Assembly: GCA_017440755.1 (NCBI GenBank)
Contig: JAFSGP010000015.1
Coordinates: 1 to 64,000 of the forward strand
Direction of reading: 5' to 3'
From: Clostridia bacterium
GTDB taxonomy: Bacteria; Bacillota; Clostridia; Oscillospirales; Acutalibacteraceae
Length of the DNA: 64,000 nucleotides
Shown piece by piece: positions 8,800 to 27,709 of the stretch. The stretch's first letter is position 1, and each line of letters opens with the position of its first letter. The notes below the pieces were generated by a model. The model was not told the DNA's origin. It worked only from the letters and a program-made list of their open reading frames with translations, and searched no databases. The position numbers and the translations under genes are program-made.

Positions 8800-9735
8800 T
8801 TAGCTAAACAGCTGCGGGGCGAAGAGAACCACCAGCAGCACCACGATGCCCAGCGCAATGCGGTACCAGCCGAAAGGCTTGAAGCTGTGCTTCTTGATGA
8901 ATGCCATCAGGAAGCGAATGACCAGCAGGGACACCACGAAGGAAACCACCGTGGCTACCGCCAGCAGAATCCATTCCTGCGCGGTGAAGGTGACGTGGGT
9001 CACCGCGGTATGGCAATGGGCGCACAGCCCGTCGACCACCTCTTCGCTTTCCAGAATCTGCCGACAAACGCCGCAGTAATCGTCCAGCAGGAAGGCCTTG
9101 ACCATCTTCAGTCCGCTGGCGCCCAGCATGACGGGAATCGCCATAAAGAAGGAGAATTCCGCCGCCACCGTGCGGGAGGTCCCCAGCAGGGAGGCGCCCA
9201 GAATGGTGGAGCCGGAGCGGGAGGTGCCGGGTATCAGCGCCAGCATTTGGAAGGCGCCGATGCCGAGCGCCCGCTTGTAGCTAAGCTCCTCCAGCGAGTT
9301 GACGGTGATGGTGTGGTCCTTGCGGCTTTCCATCCAGATGAAGCCGATGCCGTACACAATCAGTGCGGTGGCAATCACCACCGGAACCGACAGCACGTTA
9401 TCGATGATGTCGTCCAGCAGCAGACCGGCTACCGCCGCGGGAATGCTGGCAAACAGCACCTTATACCACAGGCGCCAGGTGTCCTTTCTCTGCTCGTAGG
9501 TTTTACGGCGGGAGAAGGGGTTGAGCTTATGAAAATACAGCACCACCACAGCCAGAATGGAACCCAGCTGAATGATAACCTTGAACACGTCAAAGAAAGC
9601 GGTGCTGGCGTCCATCTTCCAAACGGCGTCCAGCAGCAGAATGTGTCCGGTGCTGCTCACCGGCAGCCATTCGGTGATGCCTTGCACGATGCCTTGCAGA
9701 ATAGCTTTAATAATCTCAATCAAGAACATCGGCAT
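8800..9735 (-). CDS. uppP: Undecaprenyl-diphosphatase with a CxxC-CxxC insertion
   Basis: Integral membrane phosphatase that recycles undecaprenyl pyrophosphate to the lipid carrier for peptidoglycan and other wall polymers. The catalytic signatures are present: GITEWLPVSSTGH (19-31) and PGTSRSG (169-175), plus the C-terminal KKHSFKPFGWYRIALG. At 311 residues it is about 30-45 longer than usual. The extra length includes a loop at about 214-253 with C221, C224, C238 and C241 (CGVC, then CAHC). This looks like a small zinc ribbon or paired disulfides between two membrane helices. YdbC is encoded 6 nt upstream, so the two are probably cotranscribed. Confidence 0.93.
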   Translation of the reverse strand: MPMFLIEIIKAILQGIVQGITEWLPVSSTGHILLLDAVWKMDASTAFFDVFKVIIQLGSILAVVVLYFHKLNPFSRRKTYEQRKDTWRLWYKVLFASIPAAVAGLLLDDIIDNVLSVPVVIATALIVYGIGFIWMESRKDHTITVNSLEELSYKRALGIGAFQMLALIPGTSRSGSTILGASLLGTSRTVAAEFSFFMAIPVMLGASGLKMVKAFLLDDYCGVCRQILESEEVVDGLCAHCHTAVTHVTFTAQEWILLAVATVVSFVVSLLVIRFLMAFIKKHSFKPFGWYRIALGIVVLLVVLFAPQLFS

Positions 9736-10066: not shown

Positions 10067-10214
10067 TCAGTTGCGGGACAACCAATCCTCGATACGTCCG
10101 AGCAGCCCGCGTTTCGGCGGTGTGGGGCGCAGGATAGGTTTGGGTAAGGTCGGTTCACCACCGCCCATGTTCCTGTCTACGTCAGGTTCCTCCGGACAGG
10201 GGGGCGGCTCAGCG
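10067..10214 (-). other. Displaced C-terminal tail of the DivIVA-like protein (+1 frame)
   Basis: After the T6 run (minus strand, 10220-10215) the +1 frame stays open for 48 codons. It encodes a Pro-rich stretch and ends with RGLLGRIEDWLSRN, which looks like a genuine amphipathic C-terminus. Removing one T would join it in frame to the upstream DivIVA-like gene. It could reflect a sequence error, a recent mutation, or transcriptional slippage at the homopolymer. Confidence 0.4.
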
Positions 10215-11027
10215 AAAAAAGTGGCGGTCTGTGACCGGCTTAGTGGCGGCGGCCTGTCGTGCCTGCGCCATCCAATCGCCAAAGGCGGCGGACAGGCGGC
10301 TGTCGCTGTCGCTCTTGCACCGTTGCAGCGCCTGCCGACGCTGGTCTACGTTCCCTTGCAATTCGCCTAATTGAGCTAACACACCTGCCAGAACGGCCTG
10401 AACGCTGTCCAGGGTTTCGTCCGCCTGACGGTTGGCCTGCTCAATGAAGGGACGCACGATGTTATCTACGTGATGCTGGGCGGTTTCGGCACTGCCCAGT
10501 ACGGCTTCGTAGCGGGCAATCTCCTGCTGGAGCGCAGACAGGCGTGCGCTCTGCTTCGTAAGTTGCTCTTGGGTTTCGTGCAGGCGGCGGGCGGTTGCCT
10601 CCATGTTGGCAACCTGCTCCCGTGCCTCAGCCACGGCAGAAATCGCCTCGTCCCGCTGGGCGGTGAGGGCGCTGACCTCCTGCTCGGCGGCGATGAGGCG
10701 GCTATCCTTCTCCTGCAGCAGTTCTTCCATCGACTGAATGGTTACGTTCTTGGTATCCAACTCGCCGGTGGCATGACGCAGCTGTTCCTCTACCTCCGCC
10801 AGCTGCTCTTTGGCGGCGGCGGCCGCTTTTTGCGCCTCTTCGGCGGCAGCATTCGCCTCGGCGGCGGCCTGCTCGGCGGCGGCTACGCGACCGTCCGCCT
10901 CTTCAGCACGGGCGGTCAGCTGTTGCCGCTCGGCGTCCCACTCGGCGGTGATGCGGTCGATATAGTCCAGCACGTCCTGCTTGTTGAAACCGCTCAGCGC
11001 GGAGCGGAAAATTCCGTTTTCTGCCAT
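10209..11027 (-). CDS. DivIVA-like coiled-coil protein
   Basis: The N-terminus MAENGIFRSALSGFNKQDVL, continuing DYIDRI, resembles the DivIVA/GpsB lipid-binding head (residues 1-30). It is followed by about 190 residues of coiled coil rich in Ala, Glu and Gln (about 35-190). DivIVA-type proteins mark curved membranes at poles and septa and organise growth and division. The start at 11027 was chosen because AGGAGG lies at the correct distance; the in-frame upstream extension overlaps the promoter spacer and leader. The reading frame stops at 10209 just after a T6 run, and the +1 frame continues with a plausible tail. The full product may therefore be about 319 rather than 272 residues. Confidence 0.8.
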   Translation of the reverse strand: MAENGIFRSALSGFNKQDVLDYIDRITAEWDAERQQLTARAEEADGRVAAAEQAAAEANAAAEEAQKAAAAAKEQLAEVEEQLRHATGELDTKNVTIQSMEELLQEKDSRLIAAEQEVSALTAQRDEAISAVAEAREQVANMEATARRLHETQEQLTKQSARLSALQQEIARYEAVLGSAETAQHHVDNIVRPFIEQANRQADETLDSVQAVLAGVLAQLGELQGNVDQRRQALQRCKSDSDSRLSAAFGDWMAQARQAAATKPVTDRHFFR

Positions 11028-11079
11028 GGTGTTACGACCTCCTACAAAAAATGTATGGTCTCGTGCAATAAGTAACTGC

Positions 11080-11108
11080 ATTATAACACACTATGCGGCA
11101 AAAAGCAA
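11080..11108 (-). promoter_or_regulatory. Promoter of the DivIVA-like gene
   Basis: Read on the minus strand: TTGCTT, 17-bp spacer, TATAAT, about 55 nt before the start codon. Confidence 0.65.
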
Positions 11109-25740: not shown

Positions 25741-26619
25741 ATGAAAAGGATAATATGTTTGCTGATGGCGGCATCTCTGTTCGTCAGTTTGACTGCCTGC
25801 GCTAGTGAAAAAGCGGAAAAGTATTGTTCCGAGTGCGGAAACGGAATTGACAAAAACGCTTCTGTTTGCGATGAGTGTAGTGCAGTGGTAAACGGAAAAA
25901 CGGAGAAGAAAGAAACCACCTCGAAGAAGGCGAAAAAGACGAGCAAGAAAACGCAAAAGAAGAAGGAGAGCACGGTTGCTTCGACGACTACTACCACCAC
26001 TACTACTACGACAATAACTGCAACCACTACCACAACTACTGAAATTACTACCACCACTACTGAAATTACTACTACCACAACTACGGCTAAGCCTACGACT
26101 ACTACGCAAAAGCCTACAACCACTATCAAAACGACCACAAAACCTACAACTAAGTCTACAACGACTATTGATGCGACAACAATGACGACTGCAGTTTCAA
26201 CTACAACTACGACTACAACTATGCCAAGAACGACTAGAACTGCTACACAACAAGAAATTGATATGATAGTTGAGCGAATAGTGAATTATTATTTGCCGCA
26301 GTTTCAAAATGCACAGTATCAACAACAATGTGTCATTAATGACATCCGAGCAGAAATAGATGATCTTTGTTATGAACAGGCTGTAAGTACAAAGAAATTA
26401 CAAGAGCAATATGCAAATATGGGGATGTTACAGTCAGGAGCATATGAGAGAGCTTTGCAACAGATGAATGATAAGTATAGGAGAATGATTGCAAACTTAG
26501 AGGAAGATTTGGAGTATGCTCAAGCGCAATATGACGCTTTGGAAGAAGAGTTCAATCAAACAGTTGAGGAAGAGGCATTAAAAGAAATAGAAAGATTTCA
26601 ATTAAGTACACTTTCGTGA
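25741..26619 (+). CDS. Lipoprotein with zinc ribbon, Thr-rich linker and coiled coil
   Basis: A 292-residue exported lipoprotein: signal peptide with lipobox LTAC (lipidated Cys 20), then a four-cysteine zinc-ribbon motif (C29, C32, C43, C46). A Lys-rich stretch follows, then a low-complexity Thr linker (about 80-175), and a C-terminal charged coiled coil (about 178-285) rich in Gln/Glu. No enzyme domain is visible. The region is much more AT-rich than its surroundings. Its first 65 residues are a near copy of the next gene's, so the pair arose by tandem duplication followed by divergence of the C-terminus. GGAGG precedes the ATG. Function unknown. Confidence 0.8.
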   Translation: MKRIICLLMAASLFVSLTACASEKAEKYCSECGNGIDKNASVCDECSAVVNGKTEKKETTSKKAKKTSKKTQKKKESTVASTTTTTTTTTTITATTTTTTEITTTTTEITTTTTTAKPTTTTQKPTTTIKTTTKPTTKSTTTIDATTMTTAVSTTTTTTTMPRTTRTATQQEIDMIVERIVNYYLPQFQNAQYQQQCVINDIRAEIDDLCYEQAVSTKKLQEQYANMGMLQSGAYERALQQMNDKYRRMIANLEEDLEYAQAQYDALEEEFNQTVEEEALKEIERFQLSTLS

Positions 26620-26683
26620 AAGAGCATATCGCTGGGGAGTGTTGAAAGGGTTGCACACACTTTTCGAATTGGGAGGAAGAAAA

Positions 26684-27709
26684 ATGAAAAGGATACTGTG
26701 TTTACTGATGGCGGCGTGTCTGTTTATCGGTTTGACCGCTTGCGCAGACGAAAAAGCAGAAAAGTATTGTTCCGAGTGCGGAAACGGAATTACTAAAAGC
26801 GCTTCTTTTTGCGATGAGTGCGGTGCGGCAGTAAACGGAAACAAGGTAGACGAGGAAAAAACTACCTCAAAAAAGTCGAAAGAGACTACGAAGAAAACAG
26901 AGAAAGAAACTACAGCTAAATCCACTACAACTACAACAACGGCAATTACTACTACGACCGTAACCACAACAACCACTACCAAACCTACTACCACTACCAC
27001 AACAACCACAGCTAAACCTACTACCACTACGACCACGAAGAAAATTATTACAACTGTTAAACCTACCACAAAAAAGACTACCGCTAAACCTACCACAACT
27101 AAGCTTGTGCATAAGCATTCCTACGAGGAGAAAGTGACGCCGGCTACTTGCACAAAGCAGGGTTATACTACCTATACCTGTACTTGTGGTGACACTTACA
27201 AGGCGGACTATGTAGCCCCTGCCCATATTTATGTAGATTATGTCTGCACCGCTTGCGGTGGGGTGGATAAAGCCCACGCGTATGAGTATTTGAAGTTGTG
27301 GGTTAGAGAGAATGGGAAAGTGGATGGAAATACTGTGCAGTGTGATTTTTGGAGCGGAAACAGCAAATACTCAGTGATATACAATGCACAAAATGGGCGT
27401 GTCTATATTGATAAAGGGGAATATGTATCTGGCTTTTATCATTGGTGTGGCTTGTTTTTTGATGATTACATGTATGGTTCGCAAATGGATACTAGCCGTG
27501 TAGCGGGTTACTTGAATGCAGCAAGTTTTACTTCTTCATCTCCAATTACTTATGTAGAGTACACTGGGGTGGAAGAGGTTAAATATCGTATGATAGAAAT
27601 GGCAAGAGTAGATGTTGACTTGCTGGTATACAAAATGGCGCAATTCCTTGAGTTATACCAGTTGGGTATCACCATTGCCGATTTAGGTTTTACTTCCTAC
27701 GAATATTAA
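26684..27709 (+). CDS. Paralogous zinc-ribbon lipoprotein with Cys-motif domain
   Basis: A 341-residue lipoprotein (lipobox LTAC, Cys 20) with the same four-cysteine ribbon (C29, C32, C43, C46) and a Thr-rich linker (about 75-140). It then differs from its neighbour. Residues about 143-195 carry HKHSYEEKVTPATCTKQGY, TYTCTCGDTYKADY and VCTACGG, a repeat type common on clostridial surface proteins. The C-terminal 145 residues form a globular domain I do not recognise. The start at 26684 was chosen because GGGAGGAAG is just upstream; a longer in-frame reading begins within the old leader remnant. Function unknown. Confidence 0.78.
   Translation: MKRILCLLMAACLFIGLTACADEKAEKYCSECGNGITKSASFCDECGAAVNGNKVDEEKTTSKKSKETTKKTEKETTAKSTTTTTTAITTTTVTTTTTTKPTTTTTTTTAKPTTTTTTKKIITTVKPTTKKTTAKPTTTKLVHKHSYEEKVTPATCTKQGYTTYTCTCGDTYKADYVAPAHIYVDYVCTACGGVDKAHAYEYLKLWVRENGKVDGNTVQCDFWSGNSKYSVIYNAQNGRVYIDKGEYVSGFYHWCGLFFDDYMYGSQMDTSRVAGYLNAASFTSSSPITYVEYTGVEEVKYRMIEMARVDVDLLVYKMAQFLELYQLGITIADLGFTSYEY

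Follow-up and report, generated by a model that had tools for sequence, protein, structure and literature searches.

The undecaprenyl-diphosphatase UppP (BacA) encoded in the 64,000-nucleotide stretch of Clostridia bacterium DNA that was analysed here (the window) carries a rare, probably extracytoplasmic four-cysteine module of probable leucyl-tRNA synthetase (LeuRS) ancestry on an enzyme of a known family. UppP, a drug target, recycles the lipid carrier on which the synthesis of the cell wall depends. We propose that a Cys4 zinc knuckle of the type found in the CP1 hairpin of LeuRS was taken into uppP in this genus, and that it may serve as a cap or docking surface at the entrance of the enzyme; as a whole, this is the best explanation that we can offer and the one towards which we lean. 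No description of a UppP with a zinc- or cysteine-containing insertion was found in the literature that could be reached, which leaves out most papers in subscription journals and includes some judged by their title or the start of their abstract, and nothing was found there on an extracytoplasmic zinc-ribbon insertion. Among the matches listed for LeuRS zinc knuckles and gene fusions, none was pertinent by title except PMC9424281.

The uppP gene and its four-cysteine insertion

The uppP gene (positions 8800 to 9735, minus strand) codes for a protein of 311 amino acids, which matches PF02673 over the whole profile (positions 1-257 of 257, E 4.1e-83, 279.4 bits with a cut-off of 33.4) and NCBIfam NF001391 with 363 bits (cut-off 293 bits). 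The AlphaFold2 (AF2) model of the whole protein, which has a pLDDT of 95.5 and values of about 89-95 in the blocks of the insertion, superimposes on E. coli BacA (5oon) with a VIA-align Z score of 34.7 over 261 residues at 2.1 Å and has the interdigitated inverted-repeat fold of this family. By coordinates and alignment, E22 and S28 in the BacA1 catalytic motif TEWLPVSS (9652..9675, minus strand) correspond to E21 and S27 of the E. coli protein, R173 in the BacA2 motif SRSG (9211..9222, minus strand; within PGTSRSG) to R174, and the kink proline P201 in the FMAIPV stretch of helix H8 (9130..9147, minus strand) to P202; all of them are invariant in an alignment of 78 UppP sequences. Roles for the catalytic residues and the kink proline of BacA are described in the accessible parts of PMC4641660 and PMC5852022. 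Judged by its sequence, the protein is a sound enzyme of the BacA/UppP family with intact catalytic residues and a predicted C55-PP phosphatase. No other PF02673 match occurs in the host genome (1.8 Mb, 85.6% complete). As two matches above the cut-off to the PAP2 family PF01569 are also present in this genome, UppP is perhaps not the sole C55-PP phosphatase of the host. A gene for a coiled-coil protein (10209-11081, minus strand) adjoins uppP, and relatives of this gene are found near uppP in most loci of the genus.

Alignment with insert-free relatives delimits an insertion of 28 amino acids, residues 221-248 (CGVCRQILESEEVVDGLCAHCHTAVTHV; 8992..9075, minus strand). It contains two CxxC motifs, CGVC at residues 221-224 (C221 and C224; 9064..9075, minus strand) and CAHC at residues 238-241 (C238 and C241; 9013..9024, minus strand), and these four residues, which are all the cysteines of UppP, are invariant in four of four inserts. 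The initial annotation had placed both motifs at residues 221-241, in a loop between two late membrane helices, and this agrees with the sequence and with the AF2 model, in which helices 188-217 and 252-282 flank the insertion; the limits of the span it gave, 8995-9090, are a few bases off. Residues 218-251 are acidic, with six D/E and one K/R, and AF2 folds the insertion as a compact knuckle.

A frameshift or an assembly error at the loop was considered and rejected. The loop recurs in frame in separate assemblies (L032, L033 and L034), in diverged DNA and with all four cysteines retained, which makes an artefact unlikely, and we regard the insertion as genuine with near certainty. The locus L032 also retains the M23-S41-uppP gene neighbourhood of the window.

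The insertion is rare. We read the segment between H8 and H9 in the query and in 259 other UppP loci, all of which match a UppP profile, in a sample weighted toward the query's own family and toward the best-scoring rows. Three of the 259, which are 77-82% identical to the query, carry the loop. With four carriers among 260 UppPs, the query included, the loop is not an ordinary feature of the family, as had been suspected from the start. In an alignment of 241 rows (the query and 240 others), only the four carriers have a segment of 51 amino acids with 4-5 cysteines; in the remaining rows the segment is 16-32 amino acids long and has no cysteine in 229 cases and one in eight. A further 19 rows without the PGxSRS motif, which were left out of the alignment and inspected apart, have 0-1 cysteines in their tail. 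Within the genus, 10 genomes were searched: the loop is present in the host genome G000, in G154 and in G151 and absent from G150, G152, G155, G156 and G157, the gene is cut at a contig end in G027, and G153 gave no match. The insert-free UppP of G156 (L037) is 84-85% identical to the query outside the loop. Scans of 394 genomes of the order and 391 of the class (overlapping samples) at E <= 1e-8, a threshold that would miss a diverged insert, returned only the UppP insert itself besides frames of LeuRS size (six and one, respectively). The carriers are a few related bacteria, mostly from the ruminant gut according to the assembly titles. An insert-bearing UppP was also seen in G306, a genome of another genus (L189/L222), where it lies on a short contig and a second, partial uppP (L223) is present elsewhere in the assembly; L189 and L033 are apparently one sequence (branch lengths 0). 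As this contig is probably mis-binned, we do not claim a spread across genera.

The variation among the carriers bears on whether the loop could be a tolerated decoration, an insertion of no or almost no selective effect that sits in a permissive loop and leaves the enzyme unaffected. Its patchy occurrence in the genus (three of the eight genomes with a readable loop) and the variable length of this loop in the family would fit such a reading, as would the pN/pS of the inserts, which at 0.26-0.77 is above that of the rest of UppP (0.18-0.25) and suggests a looser constraint, the figures being rough due to only 27 aligned codons and no correction. On the other hand, the four cysteines and a core of I, L, V, V and H are invariant in the four inserts, although these are only 53-71% identical to that of the query and their synonymous sites are heavily changed (pS 0.39-0.69). 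We consider mere toleration rather unlikely.

Resemblance to the leucyl-tRNA synthetase knuckle

By profile searches in both directions, profile-profile comparison and Foldseek, the nearest relative of the insertion is the LeuRS zinc knuckle, a resemblance that the initial annotation did not contain. The spacing C-x2-C-x13-C-x2-C is that of a LeuRS-type knuckle. The UppP search in the genus also met a frame in G150 that matched query residues 203-257 with an E-value of 7e-4 and that turned out to be LeuRS, and a profile of the four UppP inserts (A1) matches this LeuRS with 35.6 bits (E 2.3e-8). In genomes of the family, A1 has a match at E <= 1e-4 in 273 of 398, three of which are UppP. The other matches listed are mostly frames of about 550-900 amino acids; all 26 that were fetched (L190-L215), as well as L162, contain a LeuRS knuckle with NE(E/Q)V, and TIGR00396 is over its cut-off in five of six frames tested, the sixth being a fragment of 222 amino acids with 294 bits. 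In the reverse direction, a profile of 13 LeuRS knuckles was run against 16,980 ORFs and ranked the four UppP inserts, with 19.7-25.3 bits, directly behind LeuRS and ahead of the LeuRS proteins of this genus that lack the cysteines (16.1-16.7 bits). In profile-profile comparisons, where each E-value applies to a single pair and 7 of the 13 distinct knuckles went into the LeuRS profile, the insert scored 54.2 with LeuRS (E 3e-13), 26.3 with a knuckle of the LytR-CpsA-Psr (LCP) family and 25.3 with methionyl-tRNA synthetase (MetRS); the match to LeuRS is stronger than that of LeuRS to its accepted cousin MetRS (34.1, E 5.2e-8). The LeuRS knuckle has E-E/Q-V (ANEEV) at the positions that align with EEV at residues 231-233 of UppP (9037..9045, minus strand).

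The structural comparison may point in the same direction. AF2 folds the isolated insert with a pLDDT of 81, and the first nine Foldseek matches in the PDB are LeuRS, with an rmsd of 0.5-0.9 Å over 28-30 residues. Most of the top 20 Foldseek rows have a probability of 0.97-1.00, but the E-values are weak (0.24 at best), and since AF2 was trained on the PDB, it may know the LeuRS knuckle from there and lean to known knuckles. A search of the insert against PDB sequences also has LeuRS in the first nine rows, with E-values of 0.016-0.057 that are not significant alone, and phmmer with the L032 insert peptide gave no match in the PDB.

The insert resembles the CP1 knuckle of bacterial LeuRS (TIGR00396; 3zgz, 7nu4) in spacing and core, and perhaps in its predicted fold. 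The LeuRS knuckle belongs to a cytosolic enzyme and moves over its active site, whereas that of UppP is grafted onto a membrane enzyme and expected to lie outside. The MetRS CP1 knuckle shares the spacing and has a similar fold, but its sequence matches the insert much less well (25.3 versus 54.2). A known Pfam or NCBIfam zinc ribbon was rejected as the identity of the insert, as DZR, DZR_2, zf-C2HC5 and the other Pfam zinc ribbons listed all stayed below the curated cut-off for the four insert peptides, and no NCBIfam zinc ribbon scored above its cut-off.

The resemblance could also have arisen by convergence, in which case the loop would be home-grown or derived from another small ribbon and would owe its likeness to LeuRS only to the general form of small Cys4 ribbons. 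The match covers just 28-34 residues, with 14 of 28 identical at best, there are weak sub-threshold matches to several Pfam ribbons, and VIA-align with the isolated insert places MetRS (Z 5.4, 5.3 and 5.1) level with LeuRS (4.7) and also lists TFIIE and adenylate-kinase ribbons. In addition, a comparison with 32 LeuRS knuckles gave no excess of shared codons (5.44 versus 4.97 expected for the query, and 4.81 versus 5.18 for L033), so that there is no trace of a capture at the DNA level. Spacing by itself does not produce the similarity, however: among 31 distinct C-x2-C-x13-C-x2-C peptides from the 16,980 ORFs, the LeuRS profile gave 61-72 bits for LeuRS, 26-32 for the UppP inserts, only 7-13 for MetRS, including the knuckles of the genus, and at most 0.5 for three others. 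LeuRS is moreover the dominant non-UppP match in the 398 family genomes, and the likeness extends beyond the cysteines to the LeuRS-typical positions L..EEV.(N/D)G.C. Convergence is in our view unlikely, and the insert probably descended from a LeuRS knuckle.

If so, the donor was not the present resident LeuRS of G000, a candidate that was rejected because its knuckle has lost the cysteines. The resident LeuRS lacks them in seven of the eight genus genomes with a readable LeuRS (L129-L135 and L140), whereas G150 has a Cys4 LeuRS (L162, on C60), a pattern that may reflect replacement of the gene or a metal site that was lost; an ancestral or since replaced LeuRS is a possible donor. In the UppP tree the insert-bearing sequences are not grouped and three changes are needed, within a poorly separated genus clade of 12 rows; a single insert clade is compatible with the data (p-AU 0.479).

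A similar cluster, C-x2-C-x13-H-x2-C, is found in G000 in the presumably extracytoplasmic part of an LCP-family protein (PF03816; C12:27801-27884; L128, L169), which belongs to a cell-envelope family and is encoded about 1.2 kb upstream of LeuRS. The cluster also occurs in G156 (L170), together with an insert-free UppP, and in a diverged form in G151 (L181). In G150, a frame of 508 amino acids with a weak A1 match lies about 1.3 kb upstream of the Cys4 LeuRS. The LCP knuckle was rejected as the source of the insert, as it has a histidine instead of a cysteine at the third ligand position and its match is much weaker than that of LeuRS (26.3 versus 54.2).

Location on the membrane and possible role

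A beta-lactamase fusion placed at Ser215 of E. coli BacA gave ampicillin-resistant cells, which places this residue in the periplasm, and fusions at Thr244 and Arg251 were cytoplasmic, according to the accessible part of PMC4641660. With the numbering of the aligned chain running 9 above that of BacA, an offset derived from E21, Ser215 aligns with A214 of the query, seven residues ahead of the insertion. By this homology the insertion faces outward and very likely lies on the extracytoplasmic face, as the initial annotation had surmised. In the AF2 model it follows H8 (188-217). The accessible part of PMC5852022 describes a role for the kink of H8 and a BacA pocket whose periplasmic opening lies between H4 and H8. 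The earlier suggestion that the loop is close to the active site holds in part, judged by helix position, in that the loop ends this gate helix. Query and BacA (5oon, 6cb2; PF02673) are alike in fold, catalytic motifs and H8 kink proline, whereas the short H8-H9 loop of BacA is 28 residues longer in the query and contains the four cysteines.

Based on its LeuRS-type spacing and predicted fold, the insertion is probably a metal site, with zinc as the likely ligand. We propose that the knuckle would hold one zinc ion and be kept as an extracytoplasmic zinc site on the outer end of H8, which together with H4 frames the entrance for undecaprenyl diphosphate. Small, rigid and acidic, it might cap the mouth of the pocket or offer a docking surface there and steady H8 or a partner, while the phosphatase chemistry would be unaltered and catalysis that of an ordinary UppP. 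This capping or docking role is a guess made by analogy, and that the insertion affects the function of the enzyme at all is somewhat doubtful. Cys4 zinc sites are less usual outside the membrane than inside.

In LeuRS, the CP1-hairpin zinc knuckle moves in over the active site, and in the N. gonorrhoeae enzyme E169 on the knuckle makes a steric contact (PMC9424281, accessible part). The acidic EEV of the UppP inserts (DQV in L034) probably matches the place of E169, as far as the numbering can be inferred. One might speculate that a mobile zinc lid of LeuRS was moved outside onto the gate helix, where it would again be a metal-dependent lid that with zinc gives the entrance its shape, sets the rate of undecaprenyl-phosphate recycling and couples wall synthesis to extracellular zinc, but we consider this improbable.

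Alternatively, in line with the redox-sensitive regulation raised as a possibility in the initial annotation, the two CxxC pairs could act as a redox switch, with disulfides formed outside the cell and their reduction or oxidation altering access to the UppP pocket. The outward location by homology, the CxxC pairs themselves and the lack of further cysteines in UppP are in line with this idea. However, order and spacing of the cysteines are those of a zinc knuckle and not of a thioredoxin-like CxxC, and the surroundings of a gut anaerobe are reducing, the gut source being taken from assembly titles. A redox switch is therefore highly improbable, and we prefer a captured LeuRS-type zinc knuckle at the pocket entrance. 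A natural UppP with an outward, removable Cys4 module on its gate helix would allow the role of H8 movement to be tested directly by taking the metal away. Should the insert indeed stem from LeuRS, one structural element of an aminoacyl-tRNA synthetase has found a second use across the membrane, as part of a membrane enzyme.

The window also contains two adjoining genes for threonine-rich, lipoprotein-like proteins (25741-26619 and 26639-27709, plus strand) with an LTAC lipobox identified by eye. Both have a zinc-ribbon-like CxxC...CxxC stretch directly after the anchor, for which Zn_Ribbon_1 was below its cut-off. From their sequences, this pair is expected to provide further Cys4 ribbons outside the membrane in this organism.
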